A stretch of 64,000 nucleotides of DNA from Methylobacterium sp. PvR107 (GTDB taxonomy: Bacteria > Pseudomonadota > Alphaproteobacteria > Rhizobiales > Beijerinckiaceae), in NCBI RefSeq assembly GCF_017833295.1, contig NZ_JAFIBW010000001.1, forward strand, positions 3,437,501-3,501,500, read 5' to 3'. Below are positions 8,506-20,081 of this stretch, one piece after another. A program made the translations under genes and the position numbers. The notes under the pieces are model-generated. The model saw only the letters and a program-made list of their open reading frames with translations, was not told where the DNA came from and did no database searches. Position 1 is the first letter of the stretch; every line of letters starts with the position of its first letter.

Positions 8506-9789
8506 ATGGACAATCGCCGCTACGATCTGGTTCTGCGGGGCGGGCGGGTGATCTGCCCCGCCTCCGGCGTGGATGGCATCCGCGACGTTGCGGTGCGCGA
8601 CGGGCGCATCGCGGCCGTGGAGGAGACCATCCTGCCGTCGGCCGCAACCGAGGTGGTCGACGTCTCCGGCAAGCTCGTCCTTCCCGGCATGATCGACACG
8701 CACGCCCACGTCTACCAGTACGTCACCGGCCGCTTCGGCCTGAACCCCGACATGGTTGGCGTGCGCTCCGGCGTCACCACGGTGGTGGACCAGGGCGGTC
8801 CCTCCTGCATGACCCTTCCAGGGTTTCGCCACTTCATCGCCGAGCGCTCCGAGACGCAGGTCCTCGCCTTCCTGTCGGCCTACCTCGTTGGCGGCCTGGA
8901 GGGCCATTTCTACCCGAACCTCTACAGCCCGGACGGCGTCGACATCGACGCGACGGTGAAGTCGGCCACCGAGAACCGCGACCTCGTGCGCGGCATCAAG
9001 GGCCACGCCGAGATCGGAGGCTTCGCCCGCTGGGGCATCAAGGTGATGGAGATGGCGGCCGAGATCAGCCGCCGCGCCGACCTGCCGCTCTACGTGCATT
9101 TCGGCCAGCTCTGGGGCCTGCCGGAATCCGGCGCCAACGGCGAGGACGCCGACACCATCGTCGAGCGGGTCATCCCGCTGCTGCGGCCCGGCGACGTGCT
9201 GGCCCATCCCTTTACCCGCCACCCGGGCGGCTTCATCAACGAGCAGGGCGAGGTCCACCACATCATCCGCCGGGCCATGGAGGCCGGGCTGAAGGTCGAT
9301 GTCGGCCACGGCAGCCACTTCTCCTACCGCGTGGCCCGCGCGTCCCTGCCGGCGGGCGTGATCCCCTACACGCTGGGCGCCGACATGCACGGCTACAACA
9401 CCGAGGTCCCCGAGGTGAAGAAGCCCGCCGGCACTCCGGACGAGCACCACGACGACGAGAACCACCCGTTCCTCGGGCAGGCCCGGTTCAGCCTCACCCA
9501 GGCGATGAGCTCGATGATGGCGCTGGGCATCCCGCTGGAGGAGGTGGTGCCGATGGTGACGTCGCATCCGGCCGAGATGCTGCGCATGGGCGACCGGATC
9601 GGCGCCCTCAAGATCGGCTACGCGGCCGACGTCTCGGTGCTGCACGACGATCGCGGCCGCTTCCTGCTGCGCGACAATGAGGACACGCGGGTGATCGCCG
9701 ACCGCCTGCTGCGCCCGGCCTTCTGCCTGCGTGCGGGCCGGCGCTTCGAGGCCGACTCGCCGATCCTGCCCCAGGCGATCGCGGCCTGA
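8506..9789 (+). CDS. Amidohydrolase/deacetylase-family metal-dependent hydrolase
   Basis: The 427-residue protein has the amidohydrolase-superfamily TIM barrel. The metal-binding HxH is in GMIDTHAHVY (about residues 66-68). A conserved lysine in RGIKGHAE (about 165) may be the carbamylated bridge, followed by histidines in LYVHFGQ (about 198) and VLAHPFTRHP. The catalytic aspartate is probably in LGADMHGYN. The family includes dihydroorotase-like and deacetylase-like enzymes that cut cyclic or acyl amides; the substrate is unknown here. ATG 8506 is chosen because GAGGTCGAG precedes it; longer readings run into the marR leader. It is the first gene of the MarR-linked operon, 10 bp before an alpha/beta hydrolase. 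Confidence 0.85.
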   Translation: MDNRRYDLVLRGGRVICPASGVDGIRDVAVRDGRIAAVEETILPSAATEVVDVSGKLVLPGMIDTHAHVYQYVTGRFGLNPDMVGVRSGVTTVVDQGGPSCMTLPGFRHFIAERSETQVLAFLSAYLVGGLEGHFYPNLYSPDGVDIDATVKSATENRDLVRGIKGHAEIGGFARWGIKVMEMAAEISRRADLPLYVHFGQLWGLPESGANGEDADTIVERVIPLLRPGDVLAHPFTRHPGGFINEQGEVHHIIRRAMEAGLKVDVGHGSHFSYRVARASLPAGVIPYTLGADMHGYNTEVPEVKKPAGTPDEHHDDENHPFLGQARFSLTQAMSSMMALGIPLEEVVPMVTSHPAEMLRMGDRIGALKIGYAADVSVLHDDRGRFLLRDNEDTRVIADRLLRPAFCLRAGRRFEADSPILPQAIAA

Positions 9790-9799
9790 GGTGGCGCCG

Positions 9800-10669
9800 G
9801 TGCCCGCCTTCGCCCTCGACGACCCGACCCCGCCGGATCCGCGCCGCCGCTGGGACAGCCTGAACTTCGCGACCCGGGGCGCCTGCTACGACAACAACGC
9901 GGGCGTGCCCGACAGCGCCGCGCAGGTCGCCGCCCGCAACGCGGCCTCCGCGGCCTACCGCGCGGCGCACCCGGCCGGGCTCGATATCCCGTATGCCGCG
10001 GGGGACCGCACCGCCTTCGATCTCTACCCGGCAGCGGAGACGGGCGCCCCGTGCCTCGTCTTCATCCACGGCGGCTACTGGCAGCGCAACGCCCGGGCCG
10101 ACTTCGCCTGCTTCGCGGAGGGCCTGAACGCGGCCGGCTGGTCGGTGGCGATGCCGGGCTACAACCTGGCGCCCGAGGCGAGCCTCGCCGGCATCGCGGC
10201 CGAGATCGGTGCCGCCCTCGACTGGCTCGCCGGGCACGGACCGTCGCGCGGGATCGGCGGCCCGGTCGTCCTCGCCGGTTGGTCCGCGGGGGCGCAGCTT
10301 GCCGCCCTCCATCTCGGGCATCCCGCCGTGTCCGCGGTCCTGGCAATCTCCGGCGTCTACGACCTCGCGCCGATCCGCGAGACCTACCTGAACGAGAAGG
10401 TCGGGCTGAGCGGGGACGAGATCGCGACGCTGTCGCCCCTGCGCCTGCCCGTCGTGCCCAAGCCCATGACGATCGCCTACGGCAGCCGGGAGCTGCCCGC
10501 CCTCGTCCACGACGCGCGCAATCTCCACGCCCTGCGCAGCGCCGCCCACGCGCCGGGCGCCCTGCTGCCGGTGCCGGGCGCCGACCACTTCTCGATCCTC
10601 AACGAATTCCGCCGGTCCGACGGCCTTCTGGTCCGCGCCGCCCAGGATGTTCTCGGAGGCGCCCGATGA
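9800..10669 (+). CDS. Alpha/beta hydrolase, kynurenine-formamidase-like
   Basis: The protein is 289 residues if it starts at GTG 9800, which follows a GAGGTGG ribosome site; GTG 9791 is an alternative. The fold shows an oxyanion motif (VFIHGGYWQR), the nucleophile elbow GWSAGAQLA, a late aspartate/glutamate region, and the catalytic histidine in GADHFSIL. The HGGYW signature and the RGACYDNNAGVPD start match arylformamidase-like hydrolases, which cut N-formyl or similar amides. It follows the amidohydrolase by 10 bp and overlaps the molybdenum subunit by 4 bp, so it probably acts on a product of the hydroxylase or the amidohydrolase. Confidence 0.85.
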   Translation: MPAFALDDPTPPDPRRRWDSLNFATRGACYDNNAGVPDSAAQVAARNAASAAYRAAHPAGLDIPYAAGDRTAFDLYPAAETGAPCLVFIHGGYWQRNARADFACFAEGLNAAGWSVAMPGYNLAPEASLAGIAAEIGAALDWLAGHGPSRGIGGPVVLAGWSAGAQLAALHLGHPAVSAVLAISGVYDLAPIRETYLNEKVGLSGDEIATLSPLRLPVVPKPMTIAYGSRELPALVHDARNLHALRSAAHAPGALLPVPGADHFSILNEFRRSDGLLVRAAQDVLGGAR

Positions 10670-19068: not shown

Positions 19069-19765
19069 GATCCGCGACCTCGTCTGCGGCTACGGCCAGG
19101 TCACCGCACTCAAGGGGCTCACGATCGACGTGCGTGATGGCCAACTCGTGGCCCTCGTCGGCGCCAACGGGGCCGGCAAATCCACGACGCTCCGGGCGAT
19201 CTCCGGACTCGTATCGCCGCGCTCCGGCGCGATCCGGTTCGCCGGGCGGGACATTGCCGGCGCGGAGCCCCGCCGGATCCTGGCCGCGGGCATCGCCCAC
19301 TGCCCGGAGGGCCGGCGCGTCTTCCCGCAGATGACGGTCGCCGAGAACCTCGCCATGGGCGCCTATCTGCGCCGCGACCGGGCGGCGGTCGCGGCGGATC
19401 TGGACCGCATCTACGGGGAGTTCCCGCGCCTCGCGGAGCGCCGCGATCAGGCGGCCGGCACGCTCTCGGGCGGCGAGCAGCAGATGCTGGCGATCGGCCG
19501 CGCGCTGATGGGGGGGCCGAAGCTCGTGCTGTTCGACGAGCCCTCCCTGGGCCTCGCCCCCAACATCGTCGAGCGGATGTTCGCGGTAATCGGGGCGATC
19601 CGCGACGCGGGCACGACCGTTCTGCTCGTCGAGCAGAACGCCTTCGCGGCCCTCGAACTCTGCGACTACGCTTACCTCCTGGAGACCGGCCGCACCGTCC
19701 GCGAGGGGACGGGGCGCGCCCTCATCGCGGATCCGCATGTGCGGGACGCCTATCTCGGTGGCTAA
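19061..19765 (+). CDS. livF: ABC importer ATPase, LivF family
   Basis: The 234-residue ATPase has Walker A GANGAGKS, a Q-loop region, the signature LSGGEQQML, Walker B LVLFDEPSLGLAP and H-loop-equivalent VLLVEQN. The CPEGRRVFPQMTV stretch is characteristic of LivF. It overlaps livG upstream and the Rieske ferredoxin start downstream. Confidence 0.92.
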   Translation: MLEIRDLVCGYGQVTALKGLTIDVRDGQLVALVGANGAGKSTTLRAISGLVSPRSGAIRFAGRDIAGAEPRRILAAGIAHCPEGRRVFPQMTVAENLAMGAYLRRDRAAVAADLDRIYGEFPRLAERRDQAAGTLSGGEQQMLAIGRALMGGPKLVLFDEPSLGLAPNIVERMFAVIGAIRDAGTTVLLVEQNAFAALELCDYAYLLETGRTVREGTGRALIADPHVRDAYLGG

Positions 19766-20081
19766 GGCGGAGCGGCCGGAGCGGATTTACCTCGGCCCGC
19801 ACGACCTTCTCGCCGACCGGACCCTGGCGCCGATCAACGTGGACGGACACCACCTCCTTCTCGTGCGGGACGGCGAGCGGATCGTCGCCGCCGAGCGGGC
19901 CTGCCCCCACGAGGGGGCGGATCTGGGGCTTGGCCGATGCGTCGCTGGACGGCTGCTCTGCCCACGGCATCTCGCCTCCTTCGATCTCCGGGACGGCTCC
20001 GTCTCACCGGGCTGGTCGTTTCGTGCCCTCCGTCTGTTCGAGATCGAGTCGGCATCTGATGGGCTATGGCTCAGGACGTAA
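19758..20081 (+). CDS. Rieske [2Fe-2S] ferredoxin
   Basis: The 107-residue protein starts at GTG 19758 and overlaps the livF stop. It has one Rieske domain: CPH in ERACPHEGADL and CPRH in GRLLCPRHLASF give the C-x-H ... C-x-x-H ligand set. It would carry electrons to an oxygenase or reductase; no oxygenase is encoded next to it, so its partner is either elsewhere or is one of the operon's enzymes. It closes the operon: the next gene is 290 bp away after a dispersed repeat. Confidence 0.88.
   Translation: MAKAERPERIYLGPHDLLADRTLAPINVDGHHLLLVRDGERIVAAERACPHEGADLGLGRCVAGRLLCPRHLASFDLRDGSVSPGWSFRALRLFEIESASDGLWLRT

Follow-up and report, generated by a model that had tools for sequence, protein, structure and literature searches.

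A candidate operon for nitrogen scavenging from a ureide-type N-heterocycle in Methylobacterium and other Proteobacteria

A 64,000-nucleotide stretch of Methylobacterium sp. PvR107 (contig NZ_JAFIBW010000001.1, positions 3,437,501 to 3,501,500; hereafter the window), part of a 6.36 Mb single-contig genome, carries eleven closely packed genes on the forward strand at 8506–20081, with a divergent MarR-family regulator gene ahead of them. It is proposed, at slightly better than even confidence, that this operon scavenges nitrogen from a small ureide-type N-heterocycle, namely an imidazole, pyrimidine or purine-derived ring that probably carries a carboxylate. The ureide class is suggested by the neighbours of related genes in other bacteria rather than by the window itself: the AllG-type, amidase/HpxZ and M20/diaminopropionate-lyase families found there act on ureido or acylurea products or on what follows from them, and a pyridine or quinoline would not yield such products. 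The original prediction had offered an amide or an N-heterocycle as substrate; the N-heterocycle is retained and, through the relatives' genes, narrowed to a ureide-type ring. The gene set, its conservation, the catalytic residues, the conservation of promoter and palindrome and the pattern of gene replacement are read from sequence, and from them we infer all functional steps, the ligand class and the regulation.

In the proposed pathway, a binding protein and ABC permease would import the ring, and a molybdenum hydroxylase would add oxygen at a ring carbon next to nitrogen, the electrons leaving through iron–sulphur centres and FAD, perhaps to a Rieske ferredoxin. A metallohydrolase of the amidohydrolase/deacetylase family (AmH) would then open the ring so activated, and an alpha/beta hydrolase (ABH) would hydrolyse the resulting ureido or acylurea product, probably to urea and an acid, leaving urease to finish. 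In other lineages, the last step would fall to an AllG-like protein, perhaps by phosphorolysis to carbamoyl phosphate, or to an AtzE-like amidase with HpxZ. Transcription would be driven by a sigma-54 promoter under nitrogen limitation, and MarR, bound to a palindrome close to the start, would repress it until displaced by the substrate or an early product. A broader proposal, to which we give marginally less than an even chance, is that the operon represents a widespread, undescribed proteobacterial route for ureide rings, with a fixed front end (importer and molybdenum hydroxylase) and interchangeable back ends. Three of these would combine AmH with other proteins: with ABH, giving urea; with an AllG-type protein, giving carbamoyl phosphate; or with HpxZ and an amidase. 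The fourth, in Sinorhizobium, would be reductive and depend on F420.

Gene content and conservation

Open reading frames, start codons, spacing and family matches agree with the earlier description of a tight eleven-gene operon behind a divergent MarR gene. Spacing between adjacent genes varies between an overlap of 8 bases and a gap of 83, and the Rieske ferredoxin gene overlaps its predecessor by 8 or 29 bases, depending on the start chosen. The gene list is corrected in two respects: the small molybdenum hydroxylase subunit is a single gene that includes a CoxG domain, and the listed MarR start probably lies too far upstream.

A scan of named genomes returned 201 AmH stretches, the best 80 of which were taken as loci. 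Locus counts refer to 105 amidohydrolase loci (L041–L145; L001–L040, of about 3–4 kb, were excluded), and removal of near-duplicates at 85% identity left 49 non-redundant loci, for which a gene was counted at any position in the locus (about 21 kb at most). The molybdenum large subunit (score at least 500) is encoded in 86 of the 105 loci and in 35 of the 49, the latter tally including L131, whose molybdenum protein lies outside the clade in the tree. It is accompanied by a full set of five transporter-gene homologues, each at a set score, in 52/105 and 15/49 loci, and 26 of the 49 hold a MarR homologue. Rieske ferredoxin homologues occur in distant AmH loci, one of them matching PF00355; the gene is counted too low, as the 10 kb flank ends before it. 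Judged from these loci, the co-occurrence is not a matter of chance. The original prediction had treated the genes as one functional unit and had suggested a neighbourhood search for joint occurrence of the families; their recurrence across the 105 loci supports the former.

AmH-bearing genomes account for 19 of 385 in a sample of the class, 24 of 397 in the order and 11 of 398 in the phylum (own genome counted; cut-offs differ). Within the nearest genome set, the gene is present in 15 of 61 genomes, every one of the same genus, and the closest named relatives of AmH are Methylobacterium strains at 97–99% identity. A near-identical order of AmH, molybdenum enzyme and transporter genes is found in Methylobacterium, Azorhizobium, Xanthobacter, Methylopila, Hansschlegelia, Aquabacter, Tardiphaga and Rhodopseudomonas, some without ABH. 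A Geminicoccaceae plasmid bears the same gene set, and rearranged versions occur in Devosia and Acetobacteraceae. In Betaproteobacteria, AmH is found both with the molybdenum enzyme (L119, L156) and without it (L102, L113, L115). Orthologous sets extend across Hyphomicrobiales, and those of Betaproteobacteria and other Alphaproteobacteria are rearranged or partial. Searches of the open-licence literature turned up no described pathway or characterised operon having this gene set, nor any close operon of known substrate, in keeping with the earlier remark that no described pathway with this exact set was recognised.

Importer, hydroxylase and hydrolases

The importer comprises a HAAT-type periplasmic binding protein (15121–16269; PF13458, 231 bits), LivH- and LivM-type permeases (16353–17225 and 17222–18256; both PF02653), a LivG-type ATPase (18253–19068; PF00005, PF12399) and a LivF-type ATPase (19061–19765; PF00005), all on the forward strand, as are the enzyme genes below. 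Plain branched-chain amino acids, ligands that the original prediction had named as evidence against itself, are unlikely, because the binding protein lacks the residues that hold an alpha-amino group. In a 20-sequence profile, the acidic residue is replaced by the invariant Gly248 and the tyrosine by Ala/Ser224-Val225, at what we take to be the amino-group positions. The protein falls below the LivJ-type cut-off, and retains residues expected to bind a carboxylate. The folds nearest its predicted model (pLDDT 85.2) include pyroglutamate- and hydroxybenzoate-bound chains as well as leucine-type and urea binders. Assignment as a urea ABC transporter is not supported, since the UrtA and UrtB scores of 95.7 and 170.7 lie below the respective cut-offs of 493 and 250.

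The molybdenum hydroxylase has a large subunit (10666–13020; MoCoBD_1), a medium FAD subunit (13017–13889; PF00941 and NCBIfam matches) and a small 2x[2Fe-2S] subunit fused to the CoxG domain (13886–15085; PF00111, PF01799, PF06240). The joint encoding of molybdenum-binding, FAD and 2x[2Fe-2S] subunits places the enzyme in the xanthine oxidase family, and the solved chain closest to the large subunit is quinoline 2-oxidoreductase (1t3q; 476 bits over the full length), so that the molybdenum hydroxylase of the original prediction is of a type that acts on N-heterocycles. The large subunit scores below the cut-off of each NCBIfam model listed, and its substrate is therefore not readable from sequence. 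Aerobic CO dehydrogenase, whose large subunit has an active-site loop with a cysteine, does not match: the scores are 442.8 for TIGR02416 (cut-off 991) and 523 for NF040766 (cut-off 950), and the loop reads PYRGVAR, with no cysteine. The Rieske-type ferredoxin (starting at 19737 with ATG or 19758 with GTG, and ending at 20081) gives weak NCBIfam matches to dioxygenase ferredoxins.

AmH (8506–9789) scores 446.6 bits against NF006689 (cut-off 371), and its binuclear metal ligands are intact: residues H66, H68, K165, H198, H234 and D293, to which we assign metal-ligand roles by comparison with the superfamily, do not vary among 19 aligned sequences, the most distant at 44% identity. The amidohydrolase named originally is upheld in this respect. 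ABH (9791–10669), a kynurenine-formamidase/HSL-like protein with solved relatives 9n8r, 2pbl and 4e11, has an HGGYWQ motif, a GWSAG nucleophile motif and a late histidine, H266, all invariant in 17 aligned sequences. Its match to kynurenine formamidase 4e11 (49.2 bits) denotes a shared fold family only.

These relationships bear on two other readings of the operon. In one, the ring is of the pyridine or quinoline type, with AmH opening a lactam and ABH taking off a formyl or acyl group, in line with the ring opening and deacylation of the original prediction; the quinoline 2-oxidoreductase match and the presence of kynurenine formamidase among the solved ABH relatives might suggest it. The operon enzyme resembles quinoline 2-oxidoreductase and caffeine dehydrogenase in having large, FAD and 2x[2Fe-2S] subunits, but differs in falling below the listed NCBIfam cut-offs, and no characterised quinoline or caffeine downstream gene was recognised. 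As ureido-type enzymes recur in several relative lineages, and the annotated neighbours included no gene recognised as specific to nicotinate or quinoline (no family search for such genes was made), a pyridine or quinoline substrate appears improbable. It is more improbable still that AmH and ABH are esterases acting on a plant-derived ester, the molybdenum enzyme oxidising the released aldehyde or aromatic. The solved chains nearest AmH, 8wzy and 2ogj, are both titled dihydroorotase; relatives of 2ogj presumably hydrolyse acetyl-mandelate, and the ABH family includes lipases and esterases. The sigma-54-like control and the ureido-type genes that replace ABH, both described below, point instead to nitrogen.

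Other genes were observed near AmH in individual lineages. A 2-oxoglutarate oxygenase and a short-chain dehydrogenase occur in L095, L098, L099, L106, L111, L112, L120 and L140; the family of the L106 oxygenase was checked, and ethylene-forming enzyme and thymine dioxygenase are among its solved relatives. PhyH-type oxygenases are found in L127, L128, L130 and L156. A fumarate-reductase-like flavoprotein is encoded at L090:5706-7801, L086:7257-9250, L109:3918-5893 and L106:1-1359, adjoined in three of the four loci by a small 2Fe-2S protein; in L090, the pair lies between the genes for the molybdenum large and FAD subunits. The selenosugar synthase gene senB adjoins AmH in L124 (above the TIGR04348 cut-off), with homologues in L125 and L134; as all three loci belong to a single genus, a selenium link was rejected. 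Also discarded were a malonyl-CoA synthase near L157, about 10 kb off with unrelated genes in between, and the PcaD-like hydrolases of L131 (the locus with the outlying molybdenum protein), L132 and L139.

Variable downstream genes among relatives

AllG-type proteins, members of the oxamate carbamoyltransferase subunit family, are encoded in the cluster in other lineages where ABH is lacking, and match PF06545 in 10 of 10 scanned cases and also in L113, L119, L124 and L126. Across the 105 loci, ABH is found in 49, an AllG-type gene in 16, both in none, and neither within reach in 40. The corresponding non-redundant counts are 15, 13, 0 and 21 (Fisher p 0.0045, kinship ignored). Because AllG-type or HpxZ/amidase genes stand in other lineages where ABH is lacking, the deacylation that the original prediction assigned to ABH is more plausibly the cleavage of a ureido or acylurea group. 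A single open frame at L129:3379-5046 on the reverse strand joins MarR and AllG domains, tying the regulator to the AllG-type protein.

In Azospirillum brasilense p4 (L155), about 18 kb encodes AmH, the importer, molybdenum hydroxylase subunits, an amidase, HpxZ, MarR and an AllG-type protein, with importer identities to the operon of 56% for the binding protein and 71% for the permease. The AtzE-like amidase there passes its curated cut-off; a gamma-glutamyltransferase-type gene does not. In a second lineage (L141), amidase, HpxZ and AllG-type genes again lie near AmH, the amidase once more above its cut-off and the HpxZ scores being 215.2 in L155 and 187.5 in L141 (cut-off 135). These loci recall the oxalurate branches (AllFGH; HpxZ with amidase), from which the host genome differs in having no AllG-type gene (PF06545 search, E. 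coli control positive). According to the available part of PMC11326118, E. coli AllFGH converts oxalurate into oxamate and carbamoyl phosphate and requires all three genes. By analogy with AllFGH, the AllG-type proteins here may catalyse a similar reaction, which is a guess; AllF and AllH were not recognised among annotated neighbours, with no search aimed at them. Homologues of the PRK06031 phosphoribosyltransferase are present in 8 of 13 AllG-type loci, above cut-off in L126, and none was found in the host genome in a search without a positive control.

Urease would be expected in ABH hosts because ABH would release urea. Among 42 genomes searched, urease alpha (E <1e-40) was found in 18/18 genomes with ABH near the operon, against 8/14 with an AllG-type gene (Fisher p 0.0033, relatedness ignored). 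Ten were left uncounted: G022, G035 and G649 (operon, no nearby ABH), G140, G147, G182, G357, G435 and G639 (neither type) and G429 (4 kb seen).

The number and order of the enzyme types invite comparison with oxidative pyrimidine degradation, in which, from what is available of PMC3758960, oxidation to barbiturate is followed by barbiturase and by ureidomalonase, yielding malonic acid and urea. On this reading, the molybdenum enzyme would be a uracil/thymine dehydrogenase, AmH a metal-dependent barbiturase forming malonylurea, and ABH a ureidomalonase releasing malonate and urea. Malonylurea, an acylurea with one carbon more than oxalurate, would suit the AllG/HpxZ relatives, and a nucleobase-type phosphoribosyltransferase co-occurs in relatives. 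The likeness extends to ring oxidation, amidohydrolase opening and urea release; the known barbiturase, however, is described in that same part of PMC3758960 as belonging to the AtzD family. A PF09663 (AtzD/barbiturase) search gave no match in the host genome and none in any control genome either. Uracil was rejected as the obvious substrate: RutA scores above cut-off in the same genome, a uracil route is already there, and uracil is therefore not needed to explain the operon. Uracil also has no carboxylate to engage the residues that the binding protein retains, and the Sinorhizobium branch ends at diaminopropionate lyase, which is hard to reach from uracil. The pyrimidine pathway is thus judged a distinctly unlikely account.

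The Sinorhizobium branch offers a different comparison. In S. meliloti R14, orthologues of the molybdenum subunits (large subunit 73%), the ATPases (62 and 68%) and the binding protein (64%) are surrounded by cofC, cofD, cofE, cofG, cofH, an npdG-like gene and an F420-type LLM oxidoreductase, together with CoA-transferase subunits, an M20 hydrolase, transhydrogenase subunits, diaminopropionate ammonia-lyase and a PyrC-like piece. The lyase, the LLM protein, cofE, cofG and cofH score above their cut-offs, and npdG and PyrC score below theirs. All 23 query proteins are found in S. meliloti GR4 at 96–100% identity, which for the PyrC-like protein covers 195 of its 238 residues. In the tree, the large subunit from Sinorhizobium falls inside the ABH-type clade (support 0.999), and no AmH or ABH is present in the mapped Sinorhizobium stretches. 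The F420 gene set was observed in an accessory cluster beside the importer and molybdenum hydroxylase orthologues in L154, L160, L158 and L164 (S. meliloti R14 and GR4; S. fredii GR64, whose stretch was read in part).

The accessible portion of PMC8407117 reports a k-mer association in which the most competitive nodule strains, including GR4, are marked by F420 synthesis, a branched-chain-type transporter and a caffeine-dehydrogenase-like molybdenum subunit, as well as by transhydrogenase, CoA-transferase, dihydroorotase and diaminopropionate lyase functions. These functions match the R14/GR4 cluster genes by content. The accessory genes of S. meliloti GR4, KH35c and KH46 tagged for nodule competitiveness in that portion of PMC8407117 resemble the operon in their orthologous importer and molybdenum enzyme, GR4 holding the R14 cluster, and differ in their F420-type downstream genes and in having no AmH or ABH in the mapped stretches. 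By analogy, the Sinorhizobium enzyme set resembles the reductive uric acid route, which, in the part of PMC12507026 at hand, ends in diaminopropionate and has F420-type, phosphorolytic and hydrolytic variants. That route (XdhD, YgfK, SsnA, HyuA, YgeY, YgeW/UacY, YgeX) shares with the operon a molybdenum hydroxylase homologue, a cyclic amidohydrolase and, as proposed here, alternative hydrolytic or phosphorolytic ureido cleavage, and with the Sinorhizobium relative an F420-type oxidoreductase, an M20 hydrolase and diaminopropionate lyase as well. The window operon differs in having no such reductase, carbamoyltransferase or lyase, and in having an ABC importer, a Rieske protein and MarR.

An imidazole or hydantoin derivative, such as imidazole-4-carboxylate, would connect several of these features. 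The molybdenum enzyme would oxidise ring carbons, AmH would open a hydantoin or parabanate to a ureido acid or oxalurate, and F420-dependent reduction in Sinorhizobium would lead to diaminopropionate. Consistent with this are the oxalurate-type HpxZ and AllG-type genes of relatives, the PyrC-like, M20 and diaminopropionate lyase genes of Sinorhizobium, the carboxylate-type binding site, and L140, in which the 2-oxoglutarate oxygenase and short-chain dehydrogenase stand beside AmH and no molybdenum gene is seen in 20 kb. The XDH-family molybdenum subunit of the Sinorhizobium strains is also annotated, in the available portion of PMC8407117, as caffeine dehydrogenase-like, a ring-carbon (C8) oxidase. 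Such a substrate would not explain the Sinorhizobium CoA-transferase, and this specific identity is possible but rather doubtful.

Regulation and implications

The sigma-54 -24/-12 consensus is GG-N10-GC. A sigma-54-like promoter, TGGCATG-CCCT-ATGC, lies at 8413–8427 on the forward strand and agrees with 9 of 11 consensus positions. Ten bases past it begins a 20-base inverted repeat, ATACGAAGCATGCTTCGCAT (8438–8457), a probable MarR operator near the transcription start. The MarR gene itself (PF01047, 53.5 bits) occupies 7864–8418 on the reverse strand; its true start is probably downstream of 8418, inside the open reading frame, because a start at 8418 would overlap the promoter-like site.

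Scores of at least 9/11 were found in 18 of 39 regions upstream of AmH, the other 21 scoring below 9. Among 601 control regions, upstream of other genes from these loci, 60 reach that score (p 4e-8), as do 6% of 820 random windows. Over 40 AmH upstream regions, such a site is present in 19 and the palindrome core (up to one mismatch) in 11, a count that misses L075, where the gene start is wrong and the alignment reveals the palindrome. With at most one core mismatch, the palindrome is present in 13/13 aligned upstream regions, all from Hyphomicrobiales, where it is the most conserved stretch, and its full match occurs once in the whole genome. The enrichment of the site over controls, with RpoN encoded in the genome, suggests that the operon is sigma-54-dependent, and scans for sigma-70 promoters and terminators gave nothing above shuffled sequences. 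The sigma-54-like promoter with a palindrome just downstream in Hyphomicrobiales suggests nitrogen control with MarR repression, in support of the original prediction of a unit for an amide or N-heterocycle. Most AllG-type loci have neither element. In a Xanthobacter and an Aquabacter (L079, L082), TTGATCTAAATCAA-like boxes stand ahead of the promoter upstream of AmH; we take these to resemble FNR/FixK sites.

Several observations weigh against the ureide proposal. Among the operon genes of the window itself, none was recognised as ureido-processing. ABH is absent from 5 of 31 loci (L041–L071), as it is from 20 kb of sequence about the operon in G022, G029 and G035; it is dispensable or supplied in trans in some Methylobacterium, and in Jiella (L069) AmH and ABH occur with the molybdenum enzyme not in reach. 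Loci with neither ABH nor an AllG-type gene are numerous (40/105; 21/49), HpxZ is found in two lineages only, and an AllG-type protein alone is seen here, as against the E. coli need for AllF, AllG and AllH given in the available part of PMC11326118. Urease is present in 8 of the 10 uncounted genomes, and so is simply common, and the statistics for both the ABH/AllG exclusion and the urease contrast ignore phylogeny. Of 40 upstream regions, 29 gave no palindrome, and a good sigma-54-like site is lacking in most AllG-type loci. Finally, the Sinorhizobium genes could be two adjacent systems.

Elsewhere in the window, open reading frames 3′ of the operon (20372–24798) resemble, by eye, a peptide-type binding protein, an M81/MlrC-type peptidase and a beta-lactamase-like hydrolase. 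Rfam matches comprise a suhB/mmgR small RNA family member (34118–34194, 47.8 bits) and an ALIL pseudoknot (35448–35564, 121.9 bits), the latter presumably typical of insertion sequences.

If the ureide proposal is true, many plant- and water-associated bacteria would share an unrecognised means of acquiring nitrogen from a ring compound. It would also give a pathway placement to this metallohydrolase, to stand-alone AllG-type proteins and to the PRK06031 phosphoribosyltransferase, and would provide a natural comparison of hydrolytic and phosphorolytic ureido cleavage. As the same front end is found in nodule-competitive Sinorhizobium, the identity of the substrate could tie a plant or soil metabolite to symbiotic fitness.

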